NCBI GenBank assembly: GCA_040702975.1
Contig: CP159990.1
Coordinates: 186,001-250,000 of the forward strand
From: Roseburia hominis
GTDB taxonomy: Bacteria > Bacillota > Clostridia > Lachnospirales > Lachnospiraceae
Length of the DNA: 64,000 bases
Reading direction: 5' to 3'
Position 1 is the first letter of the stretch, and each line of letters begins with the position of its first letter. Positions 55,568-63,269 of the stretch are shown here, in pieces. The notes below the pieces were generated by a model. That model was not told the DNA's origin. It saw nothing but the letters and a program-made list of their open reading frames with translations, and did no database searches. The translations under genes were made by a program, and so were the position numbers.

Positions 55568-57157
55568 TTATTTATTATATTTCTCTATCACACACTGGTG
55601 AATTTTATTTGCTTTATCATAGTTGATTCCGACCAGAAGAAGCTCTCCACCATAGTTCTCAAGAGCCTTCACATATTTCCGTTCTTTTATTTGAGAAATT
55701 GCCCCCGCCACCGTCTTATTCCACTTTAACTCCACTATAATTGCCGGTTTGTCAGAATACCGATGAGGTAAGAATACAATGTCAGCAAATCCATTTCCCG
55801 CCGGCAACTCTCGAATTAAAGTATAATCTGCGCGAGCACTAATATATGCAAGTGAAATAACGCAGCTCAATGCATTTTCATCATTATATGAAAGCGTAGA
55901 AACCGAAGCCAGATGTGCCTCCTCAACTCCTGCCGCAACCGCTTCCTCATCTTTCCGGAGCGTCGCCTCCAATAACCGCTTTGAATTTTCGAAAATGGCT
56001 GCAACTGCCTCCCAGCCTCCGCCTCGCACTGCTCTTACAAATTCTTCCCGTACTTCTTCATTTGGAATAAAAACCTCTTTGTACTGTTTCTCGTATGCTA
56101 AATATCCCAGATGCACAAGTAAAGTTAGAATATCATCTTTCGTCCTAAACGAAGTCATATCATTCTGAAACGAACCAATATCTATTTCAAAATGTCCGCC
56201 GCCAATCATATAAACAATCGCATCTTTCAAGCCGTCAAAATTCATATCAATGTATGCTCTCAGGCTCTCATAGGTCTCCGTCTGAGTCCAGTAATTCTCA
56301 TATTCTCCATTCAACATTGCCTGAACAATAGACCTGGGATTGTAAATATGCGTCGACCTACGAAATCTATAGCCATCATACCATCGTTTTGCCTCGGCAA
56401 AATCCATCTCATAAACTTCACAAAGCCCTTTCACCTCTTCCTCCGTGAAACCTACATATTTCGCAAGAACTCCCGGATTGGTCATTGTATACTCATCAAA
56501 ATTATTTAACGCAGATTCTGTTCCATATTTCTTAATAGGTAAGATTCCTGTCAAATACGCCAAATGAATACATTCTTCCGCCTGAACTCCCTTAAAAAGG
56601 CTTCTAAGAAATGCAACATACTCCTTTTGCATCTCTATATTATTCTTTTCTTCTCTGAACACACAATCCCACTCATCTATGATAACTACGAACCTTCTGC
56701 CCGTCAGCATCGTAATCTTCTGCAGTATTCCCGCCAAAGACCTATCCTCCTCGGAAAGATACTGCCCATATTCCTGCCGAAGCTCTGCAACAACCGGTCT
56801 CTGAATATACGATACAATCTGTCCGTTAGCTCCTTCACCCTTCGCCATATTCCATACGAGCTGAATGTCCAGCCGGATTACATCATATTGATTCAAATGC
56901 TTTTCAAACGAGTCCGCCCTTCCGATTTCCAGATTCTGAAACATTTCCCGCGAATCACAGCCACAGCTGTAATATGCCGTCAGCATCTTTGCCGCCATGG
57001 ATTTTCCAAACCGCCGGGGGCGACTGACACATACAAATTTATCTTCCGTGTCCAACAACTCATTCAAATAGCGAATCAATCCGGTTTTATCTACATAAAT
57101 TCTCGAGCGCAAAGATGTCTGAAATCCTGTATTTCCAGGATTTAAATATAGACCCAT
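55568..57157 (-). CDS. AAA-ATPase with C-terminal PD-(D/E)XK nuclease domain
   Basis: A 529-residue member of the AAA-ATPase-like (PF09820) plus PDDEXK_9 (PF08011) family. N-terminal YVDKTGLIRYLNELL, Walker A SRPRRFGKSMAAKML, Walker B VVIIDEWD, and C-terminal nuclease core GNGFADIVFLPHRYSDKPAIIVELKWNK. These proteins are abundant in Bacteroides and Lachnospiraceae; the role is not established, though nuclease and ATPase activities are suggested. A promoter lies at 57227-57255, and an insertion sequence begins just upstream of it. Confidence 0.88.
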   Translation of the reverse strand: MGLYLNPGNTGFQTSLRSRIYVDKTGLIRYLNELLDTEDKFVCVSRPRRFGKSMAAKMLTAYYSCGCDSREMFQNLEIGRADSFEKHLNQYDVIRLDIQLVWNMAKGEGANGQIVSYIQRPVVAELRQEYGQYLSEEDRSLAGILQKITMLTGRRFVVIIDEWDCVFREEKNNIEMQKEYVAFLRSLFKGVQAEECIHLAYLTGILPIKKYGTESALNNFDEYTMTNPGVLAKYVGFTEEEVKGLCEVYEMDFAEAKRWYDGYRFRRSTHIYNPRSIVQAMLNGEYENYWTQTETYESLRAYIDMNFDGLKDAIVYMIGGGHFEIDIGSFQNDMTSFRTKDDILTLLVHLGYLAYEKQYKEVFIPNEEVREEFVRAVRGGGWEAVAAIFENSKRLLEATLRKDEEAVAAGVEEAHLASVSTLSYNDENALSCVISLAYISARADYTLIRELPAGNGFADIVFLPHRYSDKPAIIVELKWNKTVAGAISQIKERKYVKALENYGGELLLVGINYDKANKIHQCVIEKYNK

Positions 57158-57264: not shown

Positions 57265-57290
57265 GCATAGTGCCAGGGTTGTTTCATGAA
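57265..57290. repeat. Left target duplication and inverted repeat of the IS
   Basis: Nine-base target duplication GCATAGTGC (57265-57273) and terminal inverted repeat CAGGGTTGTTTCATGAA (57274-57290). Confidence 0.92.
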
Positions 57291-57464
57291 TCTTCCCAAA
57301 CAGCTTCATTTGTTATAACCCCTCTATTATTCAGATCAGAATCTTTCTAAACGCATCCTTTGCAATTCCTTACCCGCATCCAAGATGTTTGCCCTCTAAA
57401 AAGGCGCAAAATATCCCTATATCTTATTTACACTTTTTTCAAAATAACTTATACTTATTTTATA

Positions 57465-58730
57465 TCAATAGAAACTGGCTATCCCGTTGAAGACATATTT
57501 CTTTCTTAAGAATGGATCATCACTGAACTCGTCCATAGCTTCTGTCATGATCTCCGAACAGTCCCCGGCCAGCATAGCTATCCGCAGGATGTTATAGGCA
57601 AACTTCCTGATCAGGGCCAGATTGATCTTTGATTTTTTCGCCGGGGACCTGTCTTCACGGAACGTATCGTCTAACACATGGTGAAGTCGGTTTTCGACCG
57701 ACCAGTGCTCCCTTTTTATACGTCCCATTTCTTCCGCTGTCAGTTCCATATCCGAGATCATTCCTGTTTTCTGTATATCCTTTGGCCTTTCCTCATCCTG
57801 GACTGGTCTGGGCCTTCTTCTTGAACCCTTTTCCAGAAATGTCCTCACATCTGGTGTGATATCATTTCCCTTAGGATCCCGTTCAACCGGTATCCGTATC
57901 TGACGGGCTAATCCCACTGTTTTTACAAAAGGCCATTCTTTCTGTGTCTTTGTCAGGAGGCTGCATTCCCCACAAACGCTGTACCATCGGTATTCCTGCC
58001 TGTCACGGTTCCTTTCCTGCTGGCACACTTCCTCATATTTTTCCTGCATTTCCGGATACCTTGCCCTGTAGTTACTGTCTTTTTTCATCTTTTTGTGGTC
58101 TTCTGCCATCTCTCCGAAATATTTCACGATCTCATCATAGGACTGTGGCTGGTTCTTTTTTACCATCAGCACAAAATGTCCCCCCTGGGAAAGGATCTGC
58201 TCCATGATCTGCGTCTGTGTCCCAATTGCATCTGTTGTGACTGTACTTCCCTGGATATCAAGCAGTTTCAACAGCTCCGGTATCGCCTTAATCTCACAGT
58301 CTTTATTCTGAATGGGCATCTGCGCGATCACCAGTCCCGTTACCGCATCTATCGCATTCAGGATCATCGGGGTCCTGAAATCCTTCACTTTCTCCATTGC
58401 TGCCCGCAGTGCCTTTCCGTCAATTGATATATGGATTCCTTTCGTGCTTACAATCTCCCCGATCCATTCCATGAATGCCAGCGCAAACAGTTCCACGTCA
58501 ATCCCCCATAGGATCCGGCATGCTGTTGCCGGGGATGCGATACCCTTCTTTAATAGAAGATATTCCCGCAGCTCTTCCAGATGTTTGTTACACCATCTAA
58601 GGCTCCTGCGTATAGTTGTCTTTCCTGCCAGAAAACCGGTCACCAGACATACCAGCACTTCCGCAGAGTCATGCTTTGTCTCCCGGCCGCATCGTGGATC
58701 CGGCACCATCCTCATATATTCCAGAAGCAT
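57465..58730 (-). CDS. ISAs1-family transposase
   Basis: A 421-residue DDE transposase of the ISAs1 (H-repeat-associated) family. N-terminal VPDPRCGRETKHDSAEVLVCLVTGFLAGKTTIRR, first catalytic region HISIDGKALRAAMEK, second VTTDAIGTQTQIMEQI, KKNQPQSYDEIV, and the YREK-like ending KREHWSVENRLHHVLDDTFREDRSP. No frameshift or stop. The ATG lies 19 bp after the passenger gene's stop and has only a weak SD, so its synthesis may depend on re-initiation. Confidence 0.92.
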   Translation of the reverse strand: MLLEYMRMVPDPRCGRETKHDSAEVLVCLVTGFLAGKTTIRRSLRWCNKHLEELREYLLLKKGIASPATACRILWGIDVELFALAFMEWIGEIVSTKGIHISIDGKALRAAMEKVKDFRTPMILNAIDAVTGLVIAQMPIQNKDCEIKAIPELLKLLDIQGSTVTTDAIGTQTQIMEQILSQGGHFVLMVKKNQPQSYDEIVKYFGEMAEDHKKMKKDSNYRARYPEMQEKYEEVCQQERNRDRQEYRWYSVCGECSLLTKTQKEWPFVKTVGLARQIRIPVERDPKGNDITPDVRTFLEKGSRRRPRPVQDEERPKDIQKTGMISDMELTAEEMGRIKREHWSVENRLHHVLDDTFREDRSPAKKSKINLALIRKFAYNILRIAMLAGDCSEIMTEAMDEFSDDPFLRKKYVFNGIASFY

Positions 58731-58749
58731 TTTTGTCCGAAAGCCATTC

Positions 58750-59331
58750 TCAGCACACGGAAAGTTCCACCCCTGTTTTTTCTAACAGTTCCTCCTGTTC
58801 TGTACTAATCTTTGATATCACCCTTTCTTTTTCAAAATACAGCAGATAAATACTTTTCAATATCTGCAGTTTTTGAAGTTCTACTCCGTGCTCTTTATAA
58901 ATCCGTCTGCTCAGGGATGCTGCCTGGGCATTAAACTGATAGTGAAATTCCTGCTCCGTTTTTATCTCTCTTTCTTTCGCAAGGTAGGTCTCTGGTGACC
59001 ATTTTTTCAGAATAACCGAAAGGACATCCTCCCAGTCATTCCCCAGAGGTTTCTTCCATCCCTCCGGGCACAGCTGCCATACTGCCCTGGAGAATCCATA
59101 CTCCCTCACTTCTATCCCTCCCAGGGATATTTTTTTCTTTTCACTTTTTATGACTCCTTCCGGAGTTATGATGCCGATATAAGTATCTACCGGCTGTGGG
59201 TATTTTTTCCCGGGAACACGCCTGGAAGTGCGTTTATAGAGATAATAAGTATCACCTTTCTTTTTGACGGTGGTTCCCCTGGTCCGTTTCTCCTGCACCC
59301 AGTCAGGATATTTTTTCTCTGTTACTGGCAT
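58750..59331 (-). CDS. IS passenger protein, unknown, possible DNA-binding accessory
   Basis: A 193-residue protein inside the ISAs1 element. The N-terminus YPDWVQEKRTRGTTVKKKGDTYYLYKRTSRRVPGKKYPQPVDTYIGIITPEGVI resembles the basic leader of some IS1634/IS4-type transposases, which suggests DNA binding. The rest is helical with no recognised motif. The ATG at 59329-59331 follows AAAGGAGGATATT. Always being first in the message, it may regulate or assist transposition. Function unknown. Confidence 0.7.
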   Translation of the reverse strand: MPVTEKKYPDWVQEKRTRGTTVKKKGDTYYLYKRTSRRVPGKKYPQPVDTYIGIITPEGVIKSEKKKISLGGIEVREYGFSRAVWQLCPEGWKKPLGNDWEDVLSVILKKWSPETYLAKEREIKTEQEFHYQFNAQAASLSRRIYKEHGVELQKLQILKSIYLLYFEKERVISKISTEQEELLEKTGVELSVC

Positions 59332-59347
59332 AATATCCTCCTTTCTG

Positions 59348-59368
59348 TATAGGTAGAGCATACCTATA
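59348..59368. promoter_or_regulatory. Palindrome in the IS leader
   Basis: Perfect TATAGGTA-5 bp-TACCTATA (59348-59368), 17 bp upstream of the passenger start, next to a TATAAT at about 59381-59386. Candidate operator or mRNA hairpin limiting transposition. Confidence 0.55.
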
Positions 59369-59477
59369 CTATATAGACATTATACCTCTACAAGAGAAAA
59401 AAGTCGAGGGTTATGAAAAAAATGTATAATTTCCATAACCCCCGTAAAAACAGTATGCTTAATCATTTGAATTATTC

Positions 59478-59503
59478 TTCATGAAACAACCCTGGCATAG
59501 TGC
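59478..59503. repeat. Right inverted repeat and target duplication of the IS
   Basis: TTCATGAAACAACCCTG (59478-59494) is the exact inverse of the left end, followed by the duplicated GCATAGTGC (59495-59503). Confidence 0.92.
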
Positions 59504-59620
59504 CTTTTAGATTTCCCGACACCAATTTCATTTCTAACCTTTCGCATAATAACCAATAGCATATCTTACATCGGCTTTTTCTGTTTACGTAAAACTTGAA
59601 ACACTATCATCTATAAATAT

Positions 59621-59729
59621 AGAACCTTCCCCCAATACTGTACAGATATCTCTTAAGTTTATTCAATGTAAGGCTTTTATTTTTTTCTATTCCTTAATCG
59701 ATATCTGTACAGTATTGGAAGAAGGTTCT
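59621..59729. repeat. Large hairpin element 1 with conserved loop
   Basis: Arms 59621-59650 and 59700-59729 (30 bp, 28 paired) around a 49-nt A/T-rich loop. The loop carries ATTCAATGTAAGG at 59661-59673. On the minus strand both mismatches become G-U pairs. See the related element 2; the arms of the two are different in sequence but pair equally well. Confidence 0.9.
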
Positions 59730-59817
59730 TCTTAATACTTTCATTATTCAGTTGTAAATGTTTAATTTGTATGTGTGTGCTTTGAGGTAATTTTAATCTG
59801 ATGATAGTAATTTTGTC

Positions 59818-59918
59818 CTTCCCTCACTACTACACAAAAATCTTTTTCAGACTATTCAATGTAAGGAATTTTTTATTATTTTTATCTTCCAGCGACTTTT
59901 GTGTAGTAGTGGGGGAAG
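59818..59918. repeat. Large hairpin element 2 with conserved loop
   Basis: Arms 59818-59842 and 59894-59918 (25 bp, 23 paired, plus one wobble) around a 51-nt loop with ATTCAATGTAAGG at 59854-59866. The arms align with those of element 1 (both have CTTCC and ACTnnACA-like blocks) but differ at several places, with matching changes on the other arm. Located 43 bp after the DUF6147 stop on the minus strand. Confidence 0.9.
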
Positions 59919-59961
59919 TAATAATTACCCTAATAAATTACTTTCTATTTTTTGGAGTTAT

Positions 59962-60417
59962 CTAAATATAAATACCATTTGTACAAGAAGTACTTACATC
60001 AGAATTCGCATAATGTGTACAACGAACCCTATAATAATACCCTGTGGCTACTGTCTTTACCTTACTTGTACTTACATAAGCTGAGTTATAATTAGTAGCT
60101 GACCAAGAACTTCCATAAGTATACCATCTTCCATTTTCTAAGCGCTCAACTTGAACCACAACTGTTATCTTACTTACAATTTTCTGGCCAACTGTATCAC
60201 CACCTGCCCCAATTTTTCCTGTACCTTGCTTATTAATAATGGATGTTCCACTCTTCAAATAAATGCCTCTACTAACAGCTCCTACTGTCACTTCAGATGA
60301 ATCATCATTAGTTAAATATGACCCGTCAATACATTCCTCATTTTCTACCGCCATCGCTTTATTGCCCATACCTAAACAAAGCATAAAACATAAAATTACA
60401 GAAATCAACTTTTTCAT
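59962..60417 (-). CDS. DUF6147-like secreted protein
   Basis: A 151-residue secreted protein. Signal peptide in residues 1-23 (KKLISVILCFMLCLGMGNKAMA, likely cut after AMA), then a small beta-rich domain (ISKITVVVQVERLENGRWYTYGSSW; VSTSKVKTVATGYYYRVRCTHYA) typical of DUF6147 proteins in Lachnospiraceae. Two cysteines near the C-terminus (RCTHY...SCTNG) could form a disulphide. Start ATG follows GGGAGGAGAAACAA. Downstream lie the two large hairpins. Function unknown. Confidence 0.75.
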   Translation of the reverse strand: MKKLISVILCFMLCLGMGNKAMAVENEECIDGSYLTNDDSSEVTVGAVSRGIYLKSGTSIINKQGTGKIGAGGDTVGQKIVSKITVVVQVERLENGRWYTYGSSWSATNYNSAYVSTSKVKTVATGYYYRVRCTHYANSDVSTSCTNGIYI

Positions 60418-60474
60418 TTGTTTCTCCTCCCTATACTATAATAACAATTAAACCCGAAAAAACTAACGCGCTTT

Positions 60475-61428
60475 TTAAAAAAAATTTAAATTTTCTATAA
60501 TTTTTAAAAACTCTGTTTCGTTGATGGGTGCGTTCAATATATAATATACATTCTTATATTTAAATTCAGCTACCATTTGATACGTTTGATTTTCAAGAAG
60601 TAGGTATCTTTTTATCTTAATAGGCACATTTAATACTTTTAACTCTTTTTCTTCAACTAACGTATCTTCAACATCATATCCTGCCGATTGTTCCAAATAA
60701 TTCAACATAATCTTATATTCAATTATACTGTCTTGACTTTGATACAATAAACATACTCGTTTCAATGTCATATCTAAATCACTATTTAAAAAAGTAGTCT
60801 TATCCGGCAAATACTGCATTCTAACCACATCAACCCCAAATGCCTCTTCTATCGCATCATAAGCTCCACTCTCTTCATCTTCTCCAACTAAATTATTCTC
60901 CCCTTCTCTAGCCGAATCTATCTGAACAATCTCTCTACTTCCAACATTTAACTTCCCAACCTTCGTATACATCGGCGTCTCACCAAAACTAGTTACCCCC
61001 ATTGCCATAACCATCACCGCAACAATCGCCACCATAACATAAGCCATACGCCGTTTCTTCCTGAAAAACACAACCCGTTTTCCAGTTGTATCCTCAGCTT
61101 CCGTCGCATCGTCCATTTTACCGTCATGATCCGCACTTTCACCCACCTCGCTGACCACTTCATCCTTATCCATCTCTTCCAACTCCCGAAGGACCTGCAT
61201 ATCTTTCCCAAGCCGCAACGCTTCCCTGTCTTTTTCCGACAACTTGGCGTACACTTCTTTTTCTTCCTCAATTTTTCGCATCCGTTCCATCATGCGGGCA
61301 TCAAGATCATCGGGAAGCTCAATATGTTTCAGAGATTCATCTGCTTCCAACTCAGCCAATATCTGATCTGCTTCTTTTTTCAATTCCTCTTCTAAGAGCT
61401 TTTCTAAATTATCCTGTCTGTCTTTCAT
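60475..61428 (-). CDS. DUF4367-like membrane protein, possible anti-sigma partner
   Basis: A 317-residue protein: charged, coiled-coil-prone cytoplasmic N-terminus (1-130, rich in E and K, with KLSEKDREALRLG), one transmembrane helix (about 132-152), and an extracytoplasmic domain ending FLKIIENLNFF, the DUF4367 pattern. Proteins like this lie downstream of sigma factors and may restrain them. The sigma gene here is 1.3 kb away on the same strand, with the convergent murG in between. SD-like GAGGAAGCAAT precedes the ATG. Confidence 0.7.
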   Translation of the reverse strand: MKDRQDNLEKLLEEELKKEADQILAELEADESLKHIELPDDLDARMMERMRKIEEEKEVYAKLSEKDREALRLGKDMQVLRELEEMDKDEVVSEVGESADHDGKMDDATEAEDTTGKRVVFFRKKRRMAYVMVAIVAVMVMAMGVTSFGETPMYTKVGKLNVGSREIVQIDSAREGENNLVGEDEESGAYDAIEEAFGVDVVRMQYLPDKTTFLNSDLDMTLKRVCLLYQSQDSIIEYKIMLNYLEQSAGYDVEDTLVEEKELKVLNVPIKIKRYLLLENQTYQMVAEFKYKNVYYILNAPINETEFLKIIENLNFF

Positions 61429-61465
61429 ATTGCTTCCTCATTCTTTTATTTATTTTCCCTTTTTC

Positions 61466-61494
61466 TTGACCTTTTTGCGCTATCTGTTTAATAT
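61466..61494 (+). promoter_or_regulatory. murG promoter
   Basis: TTGACC (61466-61471), 17-bp spacer, TAATAT (61489-61494), 29 bp before the murG ATG. Confidence 0.78.
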
Positions 61495-61523
61495 ATTTAT
61501 AGAGAAAACGGGAGGTTAAAATC

Positions 61524-62591
61524 ATGAAACGTATTATCTTAACCGGCGGAGGTACTGCCGGACATGTTACACCGAATATTGCTCTTCTGCCCCGTTTAAA
61601 GGAGCTTCAGTACGATATTCATTATATTGGATCATATAACGGCATGGAGAAAAACCTGATTGAGAAGCAGGGGCTTCCCTATCACGGAATCTCTTCCGGT
61701 AAATTACGCCGTTACTTTAGTCTTCAGAATTTTACGGATCCTTTCCGGGTTCTGAAAGGATTTTCAGAAGCTAACAAATTAATCAAAAAACTGAAACCCG
61801 ATGTGATTTTTTCAAAAGGTGGTTTCGTCAGCGTGCCTGTTGTCATTGCTGGGAAACGCAACCATGTGCCGGTCATCATTCACGAATCTGATATGACGCC
61901 GGGACTTGCCAACAAGATTTCCATACCATCTGCGGTCAAGGTCTGCTGCAATTTTCCGGAGACCTTAGAAGTCCTTCCCAAAGATAAGGCTGTACTTACA
62001 GGCTCTCCCATTCGCCAGGAATTGATGACGGGGAATAAAGAAGCAGCCCGTGCTTTCTGTGGTTTTAAAACTGACAAACCTGTCATCCTGATTATAGGCG
62101 GAAGTTTAGGAGCCGCCGCCGTCAATGACGCAGTCCGTGCCATCCTTCCTGAGCTTTTAAAGGATTTCCAGATTATCCACCTCTGTGGCAAGGGAAAACT
62201 GGATTCTTCCCTCACAAATCTGGAAGGCTACGCACAATTTGAATATATACAGGATGAACTCAAGGATCTGTTCGCCCTCACCGATATCGTAATCTCCCGT
62301 GCCGGAGCAAACGCAATCTGCGAGCTGCTTGCCCTTCGTAAGCCCAACCTCCTGATTCCGCTTTCCGCCAAATCTAGTCGTGGTGACCAGATTCTGAATG
62401 CCCGCTCCTTCGAACGCCAGGGCTTCAGCATGGTGATGGAGGAAGAGGAAATCACGAATGAAAAACTGGCAGCTGCTATCCATCAGCTTTATGCATCAAG
62501 AGAAGACTTTATCAAAGCCATGAATCAGTCATCACAGCAAAATCCGATTGAGACTATTATAACACTGATTCAAAATGCATCGCGACATTAG
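61524..62591 (+). CDS. murG: MurG: UDP-GlcNAc-MurNAc-pentapeptide-PP-undecaprenol GlcNAc transferase
   Basis: A 355-residue GT28 glycosyltransferase, last intracellular step of lipid II synthesis. N-terminal IILTGGGTAGHVTPNIALLPRL (phosphate loop), VIFSKGGFVSVPVVIAG, IGGSLGAAAVNDAVRAI, and the donor-binding ISRAGANAICELLALRKPNLLIPL. GGGAGG nine bases before the ATG. It stands alone, outside a dcw cell-division cluster, between two minus-strand genes. It may be a second MurG copy or the only one; that cannot be decided here. Confidence 0.93.
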   Translation: MKRIILTGGGTAGHVTPNIALLPRLKELQYDIHYIGSYNGMEKNLIEKQGLPYHGISSGKLRRYFSLQNFTDPFRVLKGFSEANKLIKKLKPDVIFSKGGFVSVPVVIAGKRNHVPVIIHESDMTPGLANKISIPSAVKVCCNFPETLEVLPKDKAVLTGSPIRQELMTGNKEAARAFCGFKTDKPVILIIGGSLGAAAVNDAVRAILPELLKDFQIIHLCGKGKLDSSLTNLEGYAQFEYIQDELKDLFALTDIVISRAGANAICELLALRKPNLLIPLSAKSSRGDQILNARSFERQGFSMVMEEEEITNEKLAAAIHQLYASREDFIKAMNQSSQQNPIETIITLIQNASRH

Positions 62592-62714: not shown

Positions 62715-63269
62715 CTATTCTTTTTCATTATCAAAATCATCATGTTCTCTAATCCATTTTCTTGCTCTGTACAATACACTATTCAAAACCTCCGGGCTGA
62801 TTCCCATCTCATCTGCTACATCCTTTTGTTTCTTTCCCATAATGTAGACCATGGTGACAGCAGTGTACCAACGCTCATTCACTTCATACAATTTTCCAAG
62901 AATCGTGTCTGACTTAAACTTCGTCTCTTCTTCGTTGAACCTGCGCATATATACATCTTCTGCGCTTTCCTCTGAAACATTCAAATCCACAGTCAAATCG
63001 ATGTTTTCATCGAGAAGCTCCCAAGATGCTTTCTTCATCGCATTGATCGTTGCATTTCTTGCAGTAGTCATCAACCAACGAGTAATACGTTCTTTATCAA
63101 TAGTGTCGAAATGTCTATACAAAATCTCGAACACTTCATTCGTAATATCCTCTGCCAATGAATAGTTATTGTAAGAGTAATGCATGGAAACCCGAAACAC
63201 CTTTTCTTTTAACGCATGGTAAATGCGCAAGAATTCTTCATCTTTCTTGTTATGAGTATCCACTCTCAT
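62715..63269 (-). CDS. ECF-type RNA polymerase sigma factor
   Basis: A 184-residue sigma-70 family protein. Region 2 is SYNNYSLAEDITNEVFEILYRHFDTIDKERITRWLMTTARNATINAM and region 4 is QKDVADEMGISPEVLNSVLYRARKWI. Between them is a short linker with acidic residues. It would direct transcription of a small regulon, perhaps including the DUF4367 gene. GAGGGAT lies close to the ATG at 63269; a GTG two codons later has better spacing, so the first residues are uncertain. Confidence 0.87.
   Translation of the reverse strand: MRVDTHNKKDEEFLRIYHALKEKVFRVSMHYSYNNYSLAEDITNEVFEILYRHFDTIDKERITRWLMTTARNATINAMKKASWELLDENIDLTVDLNVSEESAEDVYMRRFNEEETKFKSDTILGKLYEVNERWYTAVTMVYIMGKKQKDVADEMGISPEVLNSVLYRARKWIREHDDFDNEKE

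Follow-up and report, generated by a model that had tools for sequence, protein, structure and literature searches.

The 64,000-nucleotide stretch of the Roseburia hominis genome analysed here (contig CP159990.1, positions 186,001 to 250,000; hereafter the window) contains two adjacent inverted repeats whose arms differ and whose loops carry the same short motif. The question raised by this locus is whether these elements act as RNA or as DNA, and what the common loop motif might recognise. The reading that we favour, with a probability of roughly 0.7, is that a conserved structured RNA is encoded here twice in tandem within a 3' UTR and carries an antisense seed that would act in trans, mainly on a gene for an isolated Spo0A C-terminal domain (Spo0A_C). 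Genomes and loci are designated by G and L numbers where they must be told apart.

Two hairpins behind a DUF6147 gene

Hairpin 1, the distal copy, lies at 59621..59729 on the minus strand. Its inverted repeat has 37-nt arms (59621-59657 and 59693-59729) that are 89% complementary, and the outer 30 bp of this repeat (59621-59650 and 59700-59729), together with a 49-nt loop, correspond to the arms of the preliminary description. Hairpin 2, the proximal copy, lies at 59818..59918 on the same strand, with 25-nt arms (59818-59842 and 59894-59918) that are 92% complementary and a 51-nt loop. The two are separated by 88 bp and are related by alignment. The coordinates, arm lengths, loop lengths and spacing first reported for this pair were confirmed, as was the presence of one motif in both loops, which reads ATTCAATGTAAGG on the plus strand and occupies 59661-59673 in loop 1 and 59854-59866 in loop 2. 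The exact motif occurs four times in the 4.26-Mb genome, and only the two window copies are such hairpins; with up to two mismatches it is found four times in the window against 2.4 expected, which is not above chance.

Both hairpins fold best on the minus strand (z-scores of -12.3 for hairpin 1 and -8.4 for hairpin 2, the plus-strand values being -9.95 and -6.0), and none of 200 dinucleotide shuffles reached the native fold for either hairpin on either strand. The minus strand is also that of the DUF6147 gene, and both hairpins lie 3' of this gene. With minus as the functional strand, the motif is to be read CCTTACATTGAAT, and in this orientation the seed has a mean unpaired probability of 0.91 in loop 1 (59661..59673) and 0.75 in loop 2 (59854..59866). 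Between the two hairpins alone, five pairs are altered on both sides and 18 of 500 shuffles equal that number; compensatory changes from the window copies by themselves are modest and suggestive only, and their strength comes from the homologues described below.

The DUF6147 gene (59962..60417, minus strand, 151 aa; PF19644 at 30.6 bits against a cut-off of 24), to which the RNA family is linked, encodes a protein whose N-terminus looks by eye like a signal peptide. Its conserved neighbours are an upstream gene for a DUF4367 protein (60475..61428, minus strand; PF14285), a divergent gene for a MurG-like glycosyltransferase (61524..62591, plus strand; PF03033 and PF04101) and a gene for an ECF-type sigma factor (62715..63269, minus strand; PF04542 and TIGR02937). 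The order ECF sigma factor, oppositely oriented MurG-like protein, DUF4367, DUF6147 was the same in the window and in all 20 loci chosen for comparison (21 of 21), with extra genes inserted in a few of them. We infer an anti-sigma role for the DUF4367 protein, which would make it one half of a sigma/anti-sigma pair; no paper on either DUF6147 or DUF4367 was found in the open-access literature. In 11 of the 21 loci the DUF6147 locus is followed by a small protein that is probably a TSCPD-domain protein.

On the other side, an insertion sequence (57265-59503) ends 117 bp from hairpin 1. It has near-identical 26-nt terminal inverted repeats (57265-57290 and 59478-59503) and contains, besides the gene for a DDE transposase (PF01609, PF13808), a 203-aa ORF that matches no Pfam family; adjoining it, at 55568-57157, is a gene for an AAA-ATPase_like (PF09820) plus PDDEXK_9 protein. 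The insertion sequence looks incidental to the hairpins.

A family of long hairpins in the Lachnospiraceae

DUF6147 was first searched for with Pfam in 200 Lachnospiraceae genomes, which yielded 24 loci; several of these are followed by large hairpins with arms that differ from those in the window. A profile made from nine DUF6147 proteins, seven of them picked for having hairpins, found members in 87 of 397 genomes, 88 loci in all. Within 600 nt downstream, a strict stem finder (loop of 25-170 nt, score of at least 14) passed 31 of these 88 loci, compared with none of 88 block-shuffled regions and one of 88 upstream regions; two of the passing loci, L234 and L271, look unrelated. The long hairpin is concentrated in the 35 best-scoring loci of the DUF6147 subfamily (L193-L227), where it was detected in 28 cases, beginning 7-232 nt past the stop codon, and in 21 of the 26 that remain once the loci of the nine query proteins are dropped. 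Among the other 53 loci, L230 alone is convincing. Judged by eye, shorter versions may be present in L208 and L197, and an imperfect hairpin that lacks the seed in L204, from the genus of the window.

The hairpin family is one of Lachnospiraceae. Genome contigs scanned for it returned two loci only. Neither plasmids nor phages contained a match to 59400-60500, nor did phages contain one to the DUF6147 protein, and in a 14-mer scan of IMG/VR the flanking stem score among the matches listed and checked was at most 9, against 19 and 25 for the two hairpins themselves; L047 and L281 look like chance matches. Within the genus (8 genomes), BLAST with the hairpins gave noise besides the self-matches. 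The homologues show compensatory changes and a recurring neighbour gene, DUF6147, both of which the preliminary description had named as support. A covariance model (R2) was built without the window sequences. A model from the window alone (R1) found its own copies only in the 397 genomes, and ten loci inspected among its other weak matches (E 0.009-0.09) had no such hairpin. R2 matches hairpin 2 (59818-59918, minus strand; 34.5 bits, E = 9.8e-6), with hairpin 1 unmatched at E <= 1. Across the 397 genomes, under stricter filters, R2 gave a single match at E <= 0.01 in each of at least 14 genomes, and all 14 matches lie directly downstream of DUF6147 by the coordinates of the profile search. 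Since the genome of the window is not among these 14, this number is a lower bound; at strict E-values R2 also misses most copies of the B type defined below.

The stem on the sense strand is mostly 24-41 nt long (14 in L224), and its sequence is free to vary as long as pairing is kept; the arms are not common to different genera. When 11 A-type elements were aligned by sequence only, both sides proved to be altered in 22 of 40 pairs, and 59 compensatory cells were counted, compared with 20.2 +/- 3.7 in shuffled and at most 15 in slid alignments. The covariation expected of a structured RNA, which had been suspected from the two window copies, is therefore present among the homologues. Over 29 hairpins scored symmetrically, the non-Watson-Crick positions of the stem comprise 57 G-U against 10 A-C pairs, part of the excess being conserved tandem G-U. 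This predominance of G-U on one strand indicates that the DUF6147 strand is the likely RNA; it favours a regulatory 3' UTR over a single-stranded-DNA element, both of which had been proposed for this locus.

Mobility had been proposed as well, and a MITE-like non-autonomous element, an invertible DNA switch or another DNA-level palindrome would account for inverted repeats of 25-41 nt, for the tandem copies in the window and for the insertion sequence next door. However, the single R2 match per genome is always found after DUF6147, there are no further copies in the genome of the window, and neither the divergence of arms between genera nor the G-U bias fits; we regard this explanation as very improbable. 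Several scattered copies per genome with common ends, which would mark a MITE, were not found.

The loops are 70-117 nt long in the family and shorter in the window copies (35-117 nt overall), and fall into two types. A-type loops have in common GAAACTATTAA...CCTTACATTGAGAAACC...a small hairpin...AAAGTCGTCG, and B-type loops AACTATTAAC...AAAAGACCTGTACCGAGAAAACACCACAAATTT. Loops of this size speak against an unusual transcription terminator, the least probable of the explanations weighed here, even though the elements sit between DUF6147 and downstream genes that are often convergent. A consensus scan of 59300-61600 for terminators found none, and many loci have, by eye, a separate compact terminator-like hairpin afterwards. 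The compact G+C-rich stem, short loop and U-run of an intrinsic terminator are not what these hairpins display.

As the preliminary description supposed, the form corresponds to no described family in Rfam 15: there was no match at the gathering threshold in the window, and at E <= 1 the matches to ten hairpin loci were chance-like only. Some Rfam 15 families are likewise long hairpins with conserved loops, but none matches here. A possible likeness of the inner stem to domain V of group II introns was considered and dropped.

Complements of the loop motif

Read as CCTTACATTGA, the loop motif has the appearance of an antisense seed. Its complement, TCAATGTAAGG, occurs 44 times in 13 genomes with hairpins, 10 times in the hairpins and 34 times elsewhere. 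For YTCAATGTAAGG, 18 occurrences were found outside the hairpins of these genomes, and 12 of the 18 are in 5' UTRs, classed by eye as lying just 5' of a Shine-Dalgarno-like stretch and a start codon. In the 30 comparison genomes, two of which (G001 and G198) carry a DUF6147 subfamily gene but no strict hairpin, 5' UTRs contain none of the 12 matches, which all fall inside open frames of at least 202 codons (Fisher p = 3e-4, with UTR class and start codons assigned by eye or script). Several of the 5'-UTR sites are overlaps with an AAGGAGG-type Shine-Dalgarno sequence, duplicates or sites in congeners, and hence not all are independent. Among them are repeated leaders in G268 (DUF4352/DUF5067 genes and others, partly duplicates) and the leaders of a DUF5067 gene (G356) and a DUF4231/SLATT gene (G302); in the congeners G092 and G390 it is the Shine-Dalgarno sequence that the sites overlap. 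The flanks of 14 5'-UTR sites match the loop of the same genome at 4.86 of 10 positions, against 2.32 for 22 other sites (p = 1e-4). Five loci of G268 (L327, L337, L345, L370 and L371) have a common leader, with ATAACCGCT...TTTATATA and the seed complement, which looks like the common promoter and leader of a regulon.

At L004 (4247536-4247548, minus strand, in the genome of the window) the seed complement, with 16 nt perfectly complementary to hairpin 1, immediately precedes a compact hairpin, and the same arrangement is found at L361 in G329; either could be a short sponge RNA. Their resemblance to short terminated RNAs would suit the reverse direction of control, in which the DUF6147 transcript is controlled from its 3' end by sponges, either target leaders or short RNAs. 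However, most of the convincing sites lie where ribosomes bind the mRNAs of protein genes, as is usual when the target is what is controlled, and the reverse direction seems improbable to us.

One site in the genome of the window lies 5' of a 120-aa gene that consists of the Spo0A C-terminal domain alone (PF08769, E = 4.8e-32), and a site in G329 precedes a Spo0A_C-only gene of the same kind. Homologues of Spo0A_C were retrieved in 25 genomes, 13 of which have both a Spo0A_C-only gene and the hairpin. When each loop seed was compared with the -60..+15 region of the gene in its own genome, using 3000 dinucleotide shuffles, p was at or below 0.05 in 11 of 13 genomes (combined p = 8e-20), and the energy was at or below -20 kcal/mol in nine. 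Omission of G000 and G329, from which the idea of this gene came, leaves 9 of 11 genomes significant. Pairing of seed and leader was not detected in G302 (p = 0.82) or G335 (p = 0.12), and whole loops in place of seeds gave p <= 0.05 in 9 of 13. Where p was significant (11 genomes), the duplex is predicted to fall between -57 and +14 relative to the presumed start of Spo0A_C.

Among 99 neighbouring leaders used as controls, 6% reached p <= 0.05 and none reached -20 kcal/mol; the opposite strand, the reversed seed and adjacent loop segments were all at chance. For three genomes that lack a strict hairpin, the leaders gave -17.5 at best against five seeds, and foreign whole loops paired at -27 to -30 kcal/mol with the leaders of G198 and G162, which also lack one. 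Four paralogue leaders gave -11.4 to -16.3, with p = 0.002 for L432 and 0.05 for another. Matched pairs of loop and target surpass permuted pairs (p = 2e-5 for seeds, <= 0.016 in subsets and 0.009 for whole loops), and individual genomes illustrate how the two sides change together. In G268 the loop has an extra A and the target TCAAA; in G148 the loop has an extra GA and the leader matches it across the start codon; and the genome of the window has CATTGAATA in the loop instead of CATTGAGAA, with the target TATTCAATG (GAATA in the loop, TATTC in the target). Such natural compensatory changes open the pairing to direct testing.

Many promoters of the Spo0A_C-only genes (L406-L420) contain repeated TGTCGAA-like words. 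These resemble 0A boxes, which suggests autoregulation of the Spo0A_C-only gene.

The B-type loops may be aimed elsewhere. The Spo0A hits in the B-type genomes G111, G155 and G221, as well as in G043, are open frames of at least 270 codons and are taken as full-length Spo0A. For one B-type complement, CTCGGTACAGG, a target was not found; a second, TTGTGGTGTTT, has 22 matches in four genomes, comprising four hairpins, two sites between rnhB and yraN, and 16 others. The two intergenic sites, in G221 and G155, are 24-nt complements to the B-type loop with one mismatch (-50 and -48 kcal/mol) and lie just past the stop codon of ribonuclease HII, with a YraN-family gene following after about 145 nt (the G221 locus supplied the gene names), not at a Spo0A_C gene. 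The site is conserved between the two genomes, its 3' flank far less so.

It is also conceivable, if unlikely, that the element acts in cis only, its stem stabilising the DUF6147 mRNA or being cut by RNase III and its loop binding a protein, with the complementary leaders as side issues. The strict linkage to DUF6147 (14/14), the constant position past its stop codon and a stem that varies freely while pairing is kept would all be expected in that case. Such a role leaves unexplained both the 5'-UTR excess over the comparison genomes and the seed complement at the Spo0A_C leaders, with its matching changes within genomes.

A putative antisense RNA and its relatives

An RNA acting in trans, our preferred reading, could operate as follows. 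In Lachnospiraceae, the 3' UTR of the DUF4367-DUF6147 gene pair would encode the RNA, in the window as two tandem copies, and, if transcribed, the acting species could be the 3' end of the mRNA or a processed small RNA. The long, fast-evolving stem, kept by compensatory changes, would hold the large loop open and thereby present the conserved antisense seed, CCUUACAUUGA..., which would pair in trans with target mRNAs at their ribosome-binding regions. For the A-type loop the main target would be the small gene for the Spo0A DNA-binding domain only, and other 5' UTRs are candidates in some genomes. Pairing beside or over the Shine-Dalgarno site would be predicted to block translation. In this picture, computation shows the structure, its covariation and strand, the tie to DUF6147, the complementarity and the within-genome match of seed and target; transcription, processing, the direction of regulation and its sign, and any part played in it by the adjacent sigma factor are inferred.

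Base-pairing small RNAs derived from 3' UTRs exist, some of them under the control of envelope sigma factors, e.g. MicL; those known are mostly Hfq-dependent and enterobacterial. What the hairpins have in common with these RNAs is that they follow a coding gene and, possibly, adjoin an ECF sigma system.

SpoY and SpoX of Clostridioides difficile are reported to be trans-acting small RNAs that pair with the spo0A 5' UTR, SpoY repressing by pairing over the ribosome-binding site and SpoX activating (PMC10267692). The likeness is one of functional analogy only: predicted base-pairing in the 5' UTR of an mRNA that encodes a regulator with a Spo0A domain. In the same account the target of SpoY and SpoX is full-length spo0A, whereas the predicted target here is a Spo0A_C-only gene; and unlike either RNA, this one lies in a DUF6147 3' UTR, has a stem of 25-40 bp and carries its seed in a large loop. 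By analogy with SpoY, translational repression is the most likely effect; given SpoX, its sign is tentative.

Candidate structured RNAs of human microbiomes and gut bacteria were identified in a large screen by Fremin and Bhatt in 2021, and that set might contain members of the hairpin family, although the main text of the paper has neither 'Lachnospira' nor 'DUF' (PMC8040213). No such RNA was described in the open-access literature on RNA motifs or small RNAs of Lachnospiraceae, on Spo0A in Lachnospiraceae or on small RNAs with ECF sigma factors, as judged by title or start of abstract. The hairpins apparently represent an RNA family of gut Lachnospiraceae that has been described nowhere so far.

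More tentatively, and at somewhat less than even odds, the ECF sigma/DUF4367/DUF6147 locus may be tied post-transcriptionally to a Spo0A-domain regulator across Lachnospiraceae by a conserved antisense-RNA module in which seed and target co-evolve, the stem drifts and the loop has been re-aimed at rnhB-yraN in at least two genomes of another lineage. If the proposed reading is true, the hairpins would define a family of regulatory RNAs conserved in gut Lachnospiraceae, outside Rfam 15 and with a predicted regulon, whose main partner would be a transcription regulator with a Spo0A domain. They would also offer a clear case in which a stem of 25-40 bp evolves freely while the seed in its loop tracks the target.
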